Position numbers and translations under genes: made by a program. A stretch of 49,220 nt of DNA from a virus, in the IMG/VR virus record IMGVR_UViG_3300030107_004314, positions 1-49,220 of that record, one strand, 5' to 3'. Shown in pieces: positions 1,458-11,237 of the stretch. Numbering within the stretch: position 1 is the first letter of the stretch; each line of letters begins with the position of its first letter. The notes beneath the pieces were generated by a model, which saw nothing but the letters and a program-made list of their open reading frames with translations, made no database searches and was not told the DNA's origin.

Positions 1458-1679
1458 TTAATGTGTCGATGAGCCGTCGCCAAGCGGTAAGGCATCGGGT
1501 TTTGGTCCCGACATTCGTAGGTTCGAATCCTTCCGGCTCAGTTCTTTAATTTTATCTCTCCAGTATTCTCTATCTTCATCGGAGATCCAAGGGGAATGAA
1601 CCATAACGTGCGCTTCTTGAAGCCAGTCTTGTTTAGTCCATTCCTTTTTAGGTCTTTGTATGTGATCTTTAAGTGTCAA
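1458..1679 (-). CDS. small charged protein, tail antisense to tRNA-Gln
   Basis: 73 aa. The first ~46 residues (MTLKDHIQRPKKEWTKQDWL...EDREYWRDKIKEL) look like a genuine helical, charged phage protein. The last ~27 residues are simply the antisense reading of the tRNA-Gln gene, so the original C-terminus was probably replaced or truncated when the tRNA arrived. It follows the DUF2997 gene by 6 bases and is the last gene of the leftward block. Function unknown. Confidence 0.55.
   Translation of the reverse strand: MTLKDHIQRPKKEWTKQDWLQEAHVMVHSPWISDEDREYWRDKIKELSRKDSNLRMSGPKPDALPLGDGSSTH
1470..1541 (+). tRNA. tRNA-Gln (anticodon TTG)
   Basis: A full cloverleaf can be folded. The acceptor TGAGCCG pairs with CGGCTCA (1470-1476 with 1534-1540). 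The anticodon stem TCGGG/CCCGA holds the loop TTTTGGT, giving anticodon TTG. The T-loop is TTCGAAT. CCA is not encoded, as is common in cyanobacteria. The T-stem GTAGG/CCTTC has one mismatch. The body resembles picocyanobacterial tRNA-Gln. It lies antisense to the end of the gene at 1458-1679. It could serve phage translation or be a remnant of an attachment site, but no integrase is seen. Confidence 0.92.
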
Positions 1680-1959: not shown

Positions 1960-2766
1960 CTATTTTCCAAGTAAAGGCCAACTTCTCCACCATTTTGTAA
2001 GGATATATTTCTTACCTGATATAGGAGCTAAAGCTTCATGGTCAGTATAAGTATTTCTACTTCCATCTTTATTTAGATTATTCCAGGCAATCAATGTACC
2101 TGCTTTAGGTTTTAATTTAATACCTAATTTTATAAAGTGAGTTTCTCCTCCTTCTTCTACATCATTTAGATATAACATTGTTGTCCAAGTTCTTTGTCCC
2201 ATCCATTTACAATAGGTATCCATTTGATTTTCATTGTAATAATCTATATGTTGTTTATAAAATTGACCTATTTCATATTTTTGACCATGTATATTTCCAC
2301 CCATAAAAGGACTTAAGTTCATTAATCTTACAAATTGATCATCTATATAACTAAAATATGTATGATCAAAACGTGAAAAACCAATTTCACTACTAGTCCG
2401 GTGCTGGCTTATAACATTTTCATCATCTGTCGTATTAGTAGCAAGTTTACATGGTTCTGCTTTTTGATTTATATAACCAATTAACAATTCGCGATCAATA
2501 GGAGATATAAATTCTGGTAAACAATATAATTGAACATGAGGATTATCTATAAAAGATGCCTCCTTTGTAATAGCACAATTGTAAAATTTTAGAGGATCGA
2601 TTTCACTTGGGGCAGAGTTAAAGTTACAGGCTTCTATTAACCATTCAATTTGATCATCATCAAGATTGTAGTTATCTTTATAAAAACGAATAGCACCTAC
2701 AGAAGACCACCCTGATAGAGCATCAAGCTTAAATCTTTTTATTAAACCTTTTTTTGAAAAAACCAT
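1960..2766 (-). CDS. prolyl-4-hydroxylase-like 2OG-Fe(II) oxygenase, 268 aa
   Basis: The C-terminal half carries a textbook P4Hc domain. YEIGQFYKQHIDYY contains the HxD iron ligands (H173, D175). TMLYLNDVEEGGETHF is the core strand, KPKAGTLIAWNN the turn, and TDHEALAPISGKKYILTKWWR contributes the distal His (H243) and the 2-oxoglutarate-binding Lys (K252/K253). The N-terminal ~85 residues are not recognised. It probably hydroxylates a prolyl residue in a host or phage protein, but the substrate is unknown. There is no Shine-Dalgarno; the leader is C-rich (ccuccccc). Confidence 0.88.
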   Translation of the reverse strand: MVFSKKGLIKRFKLDALSGWSSVGAIRFYKDNYNLDDDQIEWLIEACNFNSAPSEIDPLKFYNCAITKEASFIDNPHVQLYCLPEFISPIDRELLIGYINQKAEPCKLATNTTDDENVISQHRTSSEIGFSRFDHTYFSYIDDQFVRLMNLSPFMGGNIHGQKYEIGQFYKQHIDYYNENQMDTYCKWMGQRTWTTMLYLNDVEEGGETHFIKLGIKLKPKAGTLIAWNNLNKDGSRNTYTDHEALAPISGKKYILTKWWRSWPLLGK

Positions 2767-9354: not shown

Positions 9355-9543
9355 TTACTTGTCTAGTATGTTTAGTTCATATATAAGGTGAATAACTTTG
9401 ATACTTACCATTACATAGAAGCTATACATAATAATCATGCCGATTTTGTTATGTCTGGAACCTCGTCTGTAGCTGTGGCATCCTACTGGTCCTCGATCCC
9501 AACCATCAACCATATAGTCTGTGGTTTTAAGTTCTTTGATCAT
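9355..9543 (-). CDS. possible small membrane protein, 62 aa
   Basis: MIKELKTTDYMVDGWDRGPV... has a charged, Gly/Arg-rich first half and a hydrophobic second half (KIGMIIMYSFYVMVSIKVIHLIY). No Shine-Dalgarno, and it is isolated between two gaps, so it might not be expressed. It ends where the hairpin array begins on the other side. Confidence 0.4.
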   Translation of the reverse strand: MIKELKTTDYMVDGWDRGPVGCHSYRRGSRHNKIGMIIMYSFYVMVSIKVIHLIYELNILDK

Positions 9544-9577
9544 GAGTTTAAAAACCAGGAAAAAGTTTAAATTAATA

Positions 9578-9602
9578 GATAGTTCTTAATCGTTGAACTA
9601 TC
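9578..9602 (+). ncRNA. hairpin element, copy 0 (no upstream module)
   Basis: Stem GATAGTTC (9578-9585) pairs with GAACTATC (9595-9602) around loop TTAATCGTT. It is followed by AAGCGAT like the other copies, but the upstream CCCAATCATC module is missing, so it is a partial or divergent copy. Strand is a working choice (see findings). Confidence 0.6.
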
Positions 9603-9652
9603 AAGCGATAGGGCTGAGTCGTGCTGATACGCGAAGAGGGGAAGTGGATTCC

Positions 9653-9720
9653 CAATCATCACTACGTAGAGCTTGATCGAGTTGAAAGTAGTTCTTAATC
9701 GTGGAACTACTAAGCGATTG
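9653..9720 (+). ncRNA. hairpin element, copy 1
   Basis: P2 hairpin AGTAGTTC (9687-9694) with GAACTACT (9704-9711), loop TTAATCGTG. Outer pairing CAATC (9653-9657) with GATTG (9716-9720). TACG (9663-9666) can pair with CGTG (9700-9703) in the loop through one G-U, giving a pseudoknot. Conserved linker CTTGATCGAGTTGAA. Confidence 0.7.
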
Positions 9721-9792
9721 AGGCGTTTCGTTTGGAACCGCGTGGCAAAACAATGAGTCGAGACGAGGTGAGCCAAAATGAGTTAGAAATCC

Positions 9793-9860
9793 CAATCATC
9801 ACCACGAAGGGCTTGATCGAGTTGAAGTCAGTTCTTAATCGTGGAACTGACAAGCGATTG
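9793..9860 (+). ncRNA. hairpin element, copy 2
   Basis: P2 hairpin GTCAGTTC (9827-9834) with GAACTGAC (9844-9851), loop TTAATCGTG. Outer pairing CAATC (9793-9797) with GATTG (9856-9860). CACGA (9803-9807) is complementary to TCGTG (9839-9843) in the loop. After the element, ACCGTA and TGCGGT can form a further stem. Confidence 0.72.
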
Positions 9861-9952
9861 AGTGGAACCGTAGCGAGACGAAATGCGGTGAGATGTGCGA
9901 AGATGCAGGGCATCAATACGAGCCGAAAAGAATCGAATTGAAGCAAGTATCC

Positions 9953-10018
9953 CAGTCATAACCACGTAGGGTGTAACTGAGTTGAAGCTAGTTCTATCGT
10001 GGAACTAGCAAGCGATTG
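9953..10018 (+). ncRNA. hairpin element, copy 3
   Basis: P2 hairpin GCTAGTTC (9987-9994) with GAACTAGC (10002-10009), loop shortened to TATCGTG. Outer pairing CAGTC (9953-9957) with GATTG (10014-10018) keeps a G-U in place of A-U. CACG (9963-9966) is complementary to CGTG (9998-10001). The linker is more diverged (GTGTAACTGAGTTGAA). Confidence 0.7.
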
Positions 10019-10101
10019 AATAGGGTTGTGACGCATAGCAGCGAGCGTAAATGAAACGACCTGCATCGAGTAGGACTTACACCTAATGGATGCCTAAACA
10101 T

Positions 10102-10596
10102 TTACTCATCAGGTGGAGTTAACTTAGGCATCATCCCTCCTTGTAGAGCTTGTTTCCTTGCTCCTTCTGCTGACGCTGCAATAAATGCATGTCTACTTTG
10201 ATGCCCACGTAATTCATCCCTCTGATACTTACTCAGATTTGCTTCATCAACATTTCTAAAAAGTTTTCTAGTAATCTTTTTATGTTGACGTTGCTTTGAG
10301 TTAGCTTTCTTATTCAGGTACTCAACTGCTTCAGCATCAGTGAGGATACGTAGATTACCAGACTCTTGTTTGATAACTAGAGGTTTGTTAATCAGATCTC
10401 TCATATCTTCTAACCAAGCTTTAACTTTTAAAGTCTGGAAAGGTTCAGCCGATGCTGGCATGATAGTGACTTCTTTCTTATCAAAAAGGATTGAATACAT
10501 TTCCAATACCTTTTGATAGTCAATCAATTCACCTTTCTGAATATCACGCCAAGCGATACCAGCAATTTCTAATGGGACTTCGTTTGGATTTTTCAT
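10102..10596 (-). CDS. hypothetical basic protein, 164 aa
   Basis: ATG 10596 (MKNPNEVPLEIAG) overlaps the upstream stop as ATGA, so I prefer it to a longer frame beginning at 10653. The first ~95 residues look like a folded alpha/beta domain (IAGIAWRDIQKGELIDYQKVLEMYSILFDKKEVTIMP). The C-terminal half is basic (KKANSKQRQHKKITRKLFRNVDEANLSKYQRDELRGHQSRHAF), as for nucleic-acid binding. It is coupled to the 214-aa gene upstream, so the two probably work together. Confidence 0.62.
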   Translation of the reverse strand: MKNPNEVPLEIAGIAWRDIQKGELIDYQKVLEMYSILFDKKEVTIMPASAEPFQTLKVKAWLEDMRDLINKPLVIKQESGNLRILTDAEAVEYLNKKANSKQRQHKKITRKLFRNVDEANLSKYQRDELRGHQSRHAFIAASAEGARKQALQGGMMPKLTPPDE

Positions 10597-11237
10597 GAGA
10601 GTTCGATTTCCTCGATTTGGTTTACTTGAAAACGTCCATAGCGTGGCCGCCATGTACCAAGACCAGCAGATTTGCCAGCCATAACGCAGATCTTTTTAAG
10701 GTCTGATACTTCTAACAGTTCCGTATTCAAATTCAATTCATAAGTGCATAGCCAGCCAGCTGGAATACAAATACGATTTACCCACACTCCCCTACTGGTA
10801 CTAGCAGCATGTTGGAGCTTTGGTTCACGACTGTTAAACATTTCAACAGCATCCTTTGGACCATCAAATTCAATTTCAGGATTACTGTAAACAATGATCG
10901 CTGACTTTGAAGTTTTACCTAGCTTCCAGTTGGTAGCAGCATCACGCAAACTACGTTGGAAGTTAGCTCCTGGCAGGTAGGGTGTACTGAAACCATCGAA
11001 GGCAACTGTGTTGTCCTCAGGGTCTACGATGCATGTCCCTTCTTCTTTCCAGTAGCCAGAGTAAAGCCAATCAAGAGTACGTACTACACGATGTACATCA
11101 TCTGTCTTGGCCTTACCCTTCTTATCAGTAAATTGTTTCTTCTGTTTTGCTGGCTCTCCTAAAGGATCGGAGTATTCAACATTGGATAACATGAGAGGGG
11201 CTGTTCCCTCTACTGTCACTGAGTAAGTTTTGTTCAT
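10593..11237 (-). CDS. conserved phage protein with TAPLMLSN and GTWRPRYGRF motifs, 214 aa
   Basis: The N-terminal YSVTVEGTAPLMLSN...DPL and the C-terminal KSAGLGTWRPRYGRFQVNQIEEIE fit a phage/plasmid family I remember as 'VtI.G.tPLLmh...' to 'G.G.wRPrfGRF.V'. The order of motifs, and the middle YLPGANFQRSLRDAATNWKL, recall the RRM-like folds of Cas7/RAMP proteins ('PGSSLRGALR'), but the link is a resemblance only. Function unknown. The leader holds ACACACACACAC (11245-11256) and no Shine-Dalgarno. Confidence 0.6.
   Translation of the reverse strand: MNKTYSVTVEGTAPLMLSNVEYSDPLGEPAKQKKQFTDKKGKAKTDDVHRVVRTLDWLYSGYWKEEGTCIVDPEDNTVAFDGFSTPYLPGANFQRSLRDAATNWKLGKTSKSAIIVYSNPEIEFDGPKDAVEMFNSREPKLQHAASTSRGVWVNRICIPAGWLCTYELNLNTELLEVSDLKKICVMAGKSAGLGTWRPRYGRFQVNQIEEIELS

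Follow-up and report, generated by a model that had tools for sequence, protein, structure and literature searches.

What is the array of four related hairpins at positions 9578-10009 of this viral DNA, and what purpose could it serve? An earlier note on the window, by which we mean the whole 49,220-nt stretch analysed, had read the hairpins as a candidate undescribed class of structured RNA. Our analysis indicates that 9578-10101 holds the guide RNAs of a VIPR (Viral Interference Programmable Repeat) system in a cyanophage, a reading to which we assign a probability of about 0.93. VIPR, by which phages recognise DNA under RNA guidance, entered the literature in 2026 as a possible CRISPR ancestor with a gapped DNA-reading code (bioRxiv 2026.04.26.720920), and the preprint describes a RAMP protein, Vipr, a vap gene and guide RNAs in which GGY and NN alternate (PMC13142463; bioRxiv 2026.04.26.720920). 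The information of the array sits between the hairpins, as tandem pentanucleotide tracts, and the layout is as follows.

9578-9609 (+): element B1, first element of the array; stem GATAGTTC/GAACTATC (9578-9585/9595-9602, 8 bp intact), loop TTAATCGTT, then AAGCGAT; pairing and covariation
9613-9646 (+): T1, possible guide tract of 7 pentamers, NN letters CT TC CT AC AA GG GT; score 9.7, within chance, doubtful
9650-9686 (+): element A, probable 3' tail of guide 1, and linker GAGTTGAA; repeat family D2, not thermodynamically distinct
9687-9720 (+): element B2; stem AGTAGTTC/GAACTACT (9687-9694/9704-9711, 8 bp intact), with AAGCGATTG; pairing and covariation
9717-9784 (+): T2, guide tract of 14 pentamers, NN letters TT GC TC TG CC TG AA AT TC AC GT CC AT TT; score 20.9
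9790-9826 (+): second element A and linker; repeat family
9827-9860 (+): element B3; stem GTCAGTTC/GAACTGAC (9827-9834/9844-9851, 8 bp intact), with AAGCGATTG; pairing, covariation and fold z
9857-9948 (+): T3, guide tract of 18 pentamers, NN letters TT TG CC GC AC AT GT AT CG AT GG TC AC CC AA TC TT GC; score 27.6
9950-9986 (+): third element A and linker; from sequence
9987-10018 (+): element B4; stem GCTAGTTC/GAACTAGC (9987-9994/10002-10009, 8 bp intact), loop TATCGTG, with AAGCGATTG; pairing
10015-10073 (+): T4, guide tract of 12 pentamers, NN letters TT TA TT AC TA GC CG AT AC CT TC TA; score 15.0

An element B thus precedes each tract, and a weakly folded element A follows every tract except the last. 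Ahead of the array no promoter-like site above chance was found. Into the interval 9544-10101, described earlier as free of genes, extends a plus-strand ORF (9388-9570, 60 aa); this ORF lies directly before the array, has no family match and could be the remnant of a longer gene.

All four hairpins were recovered where the earlier note had placed them, with eight of eight stem pairs intact in each copy. The core hairpin pattern matches three times in the window against 0.15 matches expected (0 of 100 shuffles), and the fold of element B3, which holds hairpin 3, has a z-score of -3.6. The loop is 7 nt long in copy 4 and 9 nt in the other three. Conserved blocks had also been reported before and after copies 1-3; CTTGATCGAGTTGAA is indeed found before copies 2 and 3 but is absent before copy 1, which is followed by AAGCGATA. 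Covariation was measured on 23 distinct copies, 20 of them from other contigs, which were collected by loop and tail anchors with pairing not required. In the structure comprising stem and pseudoknot, 28 cells changed on both sides, compared with 7.7 +/- 2.1 after shuffling (0 of 500), and its pairing held in 92% of cases in register and in at most 46% when slid. Selection on base pairing in an array of structured RNA, as originally proposed, is therefore supported by strong stem covariation across contigs, and a scan of the window and the array region against Rfam gave no match at the gathering score for the array. Nothing in the analysis points to a folded single-stranded DNA, the other form that had been suggested. 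The sole Rfam match in the window is a tRNA-Gln (TTG) at 1470-1541 (+), and a 2OG-Fe(II) oxygenase gene lies at 1960-2766 (-).

The loop letters ATCG are complementary to a CGAT located just downstream of the stem, a complementarity that had been overlooked and that makes a pseudoknot possible at the sequence level. Across the 23 copies these letters are conserved and do not covary, so that the pseudoknot is unproven. Moreover, only 2-4 nt are available to bridge the 8-bp stem, perhaps too few to let the stem and pseudoknot helices coexist.

Between the hairpins, the window shows a 5-nt periodicity that had likewise escaped the first reading; it was recognised because actinophage homologues of Vipr showed tracts of GGCNN repeats, and autocorrelation in these arrays peaks at 5, 10 and 15. 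Seventy-two arrays supplied 154 distinct tracts, to which a five-position hidden Markov model was fitted. Period 5 gained 2421 log units and period 10, its multiple, 2456, whereas periods 3, 4, 6 and 7 gained at most 13. The consensus consists of G (or A), A (or C), a purine and two free letters, i.e., a constant triplet G(A/C)R followed by NN; GGY itself is not what the cyanophage tracts carry. In the window the tracts contain 7 (doubtful), 14, 18 and 12 such pentamers. When a model trained on 151 tracts with the window excluded was applied to the 49 kb, T3 (27.6), T2 (20.9) and T4 (15.0) were the first, second and third best stretches. The maximum over 30 Markov copies of the window, used as background, was 13.4, so that T3 and T2 are far above chance, T4 taken alone is only just above it and T1, at 9.7, is not distinct. 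A period-5 scan blind to the consensus returned T3 as its only match in the window and recovered the guides of Escherichia phage SUSP1 as a positive control. The hairpins thus divide a VIPR guide-RNA array, with pentanucleotide tracts between them and a Vipr homologue adjoining, and the reading as an undescribed class is not supported.

The same fit yielded GGT/NN for SUSP1 and GGC/NN for actinophages. Fits to single loci gave GCA/NN for a Vibrio phage and, for the GC-rich cyanophage loci L136 and L137 (minus strand), GC with a mostly purine third letter and then NN. The Vibrio tracts belong to phage 1.266.O (L268, 3591-3800) and stand beside a distant Vipr homologue. In actinophage Vipr arrays (L058, 6206-6247 and 6350-6392; L059, 2984-3024), T-arm-like minihelices with an acceptor-like stem and a TTCGANT loop lie between the GGC/NN tracts and may be cut by host tRNA-processing enzymes. 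Substitution rates between related tracts did not differ clearly between NN (11.2%) and constant positions (12.4%, p=0.17); with more, overlapping tract pairs the values were 11.4% and 13.4% (p=0.002). Changes at the first constant position were mostly between A and G. Guides appear to recombine, because related tracts have parts in common. In loci L107, L113, L127 and L138 the guides have identical last nine NN pairs and differ before them, as if the tracts had recombined internally.

Two genes adjoin the array and are convergent to it, forming a two-gene operon.

10102-10596 (-): probable vap (accessory) gene, ~164 aa from an inner ATG as in homologues; the ORF reaches 10653
10593-11237 (-): vipr, 214-aa RAMP-fold protein; phrog_4652 (E=7.4e-25), profile match to PDB 36pp, fold match to Csm3

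The Vipr profile matched one PDB sequence, the SUSP1 Vipr protein 36pp, with E=4.5e-48 for a mixed alignment and 8.7e-25 for a profile built from cyanophage sequences alone. An AlphaFold model of the window's Vipr homologue (pLDDT 89.3) matches RAMPs of the Csm3/Cas7 family (best E 2e-6), and its homologues show little or no variation in the motif GLGTWRPRxGRF. At the array loci the Vipr protein (phrog_4652) measures 213-232 aa and the accessory protein ~165 aa. Comparison of the latter with SUSP1 vap1 revealed no significant relationship, its model matched no known fold in the PDB, and PADLOC gave no match for the two neighbouring proteins. Cyanophage Vipr proteins group as a single clade in the tree (100/99), separate from the proteins of actinophages, SUSP1 and Pseudomonas; the Vibrio branch is too long to be placed.

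Searching viral contigs with the hairpin pattern gave ~30 true homologues, to which a second pattern added more, and complete arrays elsewhere comprise ~3-8 units. A unit opens with an element B, made up of hairpin, loop and ACGAT. Some 75-175 nt rich in purines follow, then an element A, which has a 6-bp stem in many units, and a linker near GTTRARR that leads to the next B. The same hairpin scan of a genome contig collection gave two matches, both due to chance, as were two loci found by an element A pattern with the wrong gap. The window phage is related to Synechococcus phage S-EIV1 (terminase 64%), and the largest other group of arrays is near Prochlorococcus phage MED4-184. Neither of these two array-less relatives has a Vipr match. 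A Vipr relative is encoded by 131 viral contigs; among the fetched ones the accessory gene is present in ~70 of 80, with B hairpins just after it where the sequence suffices. Array, vipr and accessory gene thus recur as a trio in ~70 cyanophage contigs besides the window. Conversely, every array locus with enough sequence has the same gene pair on its other side, the exception being a few GC-rich contigs in which no accessory gene was recognised.

Arrays start with a B and often overlap the final codons of the gene upstream, which is phrog_570 in one group and a tyrosine recombinase in another. In L019 (1673-2323) and ~25 other loci the last codons and stop of phrog_570 (TSS*) lie inside the first hairpin, and phrog_570 relatives without an array have different gene ends. 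In L040 and L046 the array is nearly the same but its left flank differs, with the changeover at the foot of the first hairpin, so that the array module appears to move or recombine at this point.

On homology with the SUSP1 system, a mechanism can be proposed. The homology and fold of Vipr, the repeats of period 5 with their consensus, the stem covariation and the co-conservation of array, vipr and accessory gene were all computed here; that the array is transcribed, that its RNA is processed at A and B and enters an RNP, that pairing follows a one-base skip rule and that there are targets is inferred. The plus strand of 9578-10101 would be transcribed, necessarily from the left because the array is on the strand opposite vipr, and cut into guide RNAs, each a pentamer tract with the constant G(A/C)R triplet and free NN. 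Vipr subunits would assemble along the tract, with roughly one subunit for every five nucleotides, presenting the NN letters, which would pair with double-stranded target DNA while skipping one target base between pairs. The preprint reports such reading of double-stranded DNA, with one base skipped, for VIPR guides, and shows that the system binds DNA (PMC13142463). The bound RNP would silence genes of competing phages by blocking their transcription, and comparison with SUSP1, in which every tract has one element ahead of it and one behind, suggests that elements B and A around the tracts are processing or capping signals. The array very probably arms the Vipr protein, enabling it to locate the DNA of rival viruses and silence it.

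Targets were sought by comparing 281 decoded guides with 2.4 Mb (the loci and five cyanophage records), a small target space, at skips of 0, 1 and 2; nothing exceeded scrambled controls, except for matches in loci that had been fetched with the guide's own pattern. Three guide cores scanned through the viral collection gave no extended match among the matches listed. A 10-pair match in L142 was rejected as a product of the search pattern and was not aligned with codon wobble positions.

These null searches leave some room for the array RNA being bound by the Vipr homologue without DNA guidance, the RNP having another job such as RNA targeting or self-regulation. The change of the constant triplet from GGY, the long separate branch of the cyanophage Vipr and the nearest solved folds, those of Csm3, subunits of an RNA-targeting complex, would agree with such a role. 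However, free NN letters next to a fixed triplet follow the same logic as in SUSP1, a system already shown to bind DNA has the same Vipr family and architecture (PMC13142463), and the space searched was small; we regard a role without DNA guidance as unlikely.

The remaining alternatives are weaker. That the hairpins are a free-standing structured RNA, e.g., a decoy or a 3' UTR stabiliser unlinked to Vipr, would agree with the strong covariation, the lack of an Rfam match and the fact that many contigs have the array within the 3' end of a late gene. It is nevertheless very improbable, being largely refuted by co-occurrence: vipr and the accessory gene adjoin the array in all loci with enough sequence, array-less relatives have no Vipr, and the pentamer code is left over. 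An integron-like array of attC-like recombination sites with non-coding cassettes is still less probable. In its favour, the array starts within the 3' end of a tyrosine recombinase gene in L028 (2036-3253), L045, L055 and L056, and contigs differ in how hairpin types and spacers are combined. Against it, the window and most contigs have no recombinase next to the array, unit order is largely conserved, consistent attC boxes are lacking (a GTTRRRY-like motif is missing in several junctions) and the tracts carry a 5-nt code. Least credible of all is a bidirectional transcription terminator between convergent operons, which the convergent placement and the pyrimidine-rich minus strand might suggest; no terminator-like site was found at the array, and pentamer code and Vipr would be unexplained. 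A single-strand hairpin promoter and an intrinsic terminator found no support, and a known transfer RNA or tmRNA was discarded, the window having only the tRNA-Gln at 1470. The repeat families, and PADLOC applied to the two neighbouring proteins, did not reveal the near-identical direct repeats, ~30-nt spacers or cas genes of a CRISPR-Cas array.

Returning to the VIPR reading, the system itself has been known since 2026. Judged by the main text of the preprint, the candidate novelties are that cyanophages have a clade of their own, that the triplet is changed, that the array runs antisense and that its dividers covary. That main text makes no mention of cyanophages (PMC13142463), but it does refer to VIPR types with a "related consensus" in place of GGY in fig. 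S17, and the cyanophage clade and the G(A/C)R consensus may already be included there. We tentatively propose a separate cyanophage VIPR lineage in which the triplet shifted from GGY to G(A/C)R in step with Vipr, and in which the hairpin-pseudoknot of element B is an undescribed, possibly self-cleaving, processing signal. VIPR loci occur in many phage contigs, and the isolates nearest to these are phages of marine and freshwater picocyanobacteria. A supposedly fixed part of the code can change, being GGY in SUSP1 and actinophage loci and GAR or GCR in cyanophages, and the protein-RNA half of the code is therefore testable by swapping triplets and Vipr proteins. As long, recombining catalogues of putative viral targets, the arrays could record the viruses that compete in ocean cyanobacteria.

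Compared with VIPR type II of Escherichia phage SUSP1 (PMC13142463; PDB 36pp), the window has in common a Vipr homologue in a minimal set of vipr and a small second gene, an adjoining non-coding array whose tandem pentanucleotides combine a constant triplet with NN, and structured elements before and after the tracts. The VIPR description also includes a 3' tail that is structured and, in the SUSP1 clade, contains a pseudoknot (PMC13142463). The window differs in its triplet, G(A/C)R instead of GGY, in an array antisense and convergent to vipr, in dividers that are covarying hairpins with a possible ATCG/CGAT pseudoknot, in an accessory protein not detectably related and in a Vipr of a separate clade. 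Mycobacterium phage LittleE (gp34/gp33) and Gordonia phage MakoManhole (gp78/gp77) also have a Vipr homologue, a second gene and adjoining period-5 tracts, but with a GGC/NN code, T-arm-like minihelices between tracts and the array on the vipr strand. Finally, Class 1 CRISPR-Cas (Csm3/Cas7 RAMPs) resembles the window in its RAMP fold and in an RNA array of structured elements and variable stretches, whereas the window has no identical repeats with ~30-nt spacers, no cas genes were seen adjoining, and the contiguous guide of CRISPR-Cas is replaced here by a five-nucleotide code.
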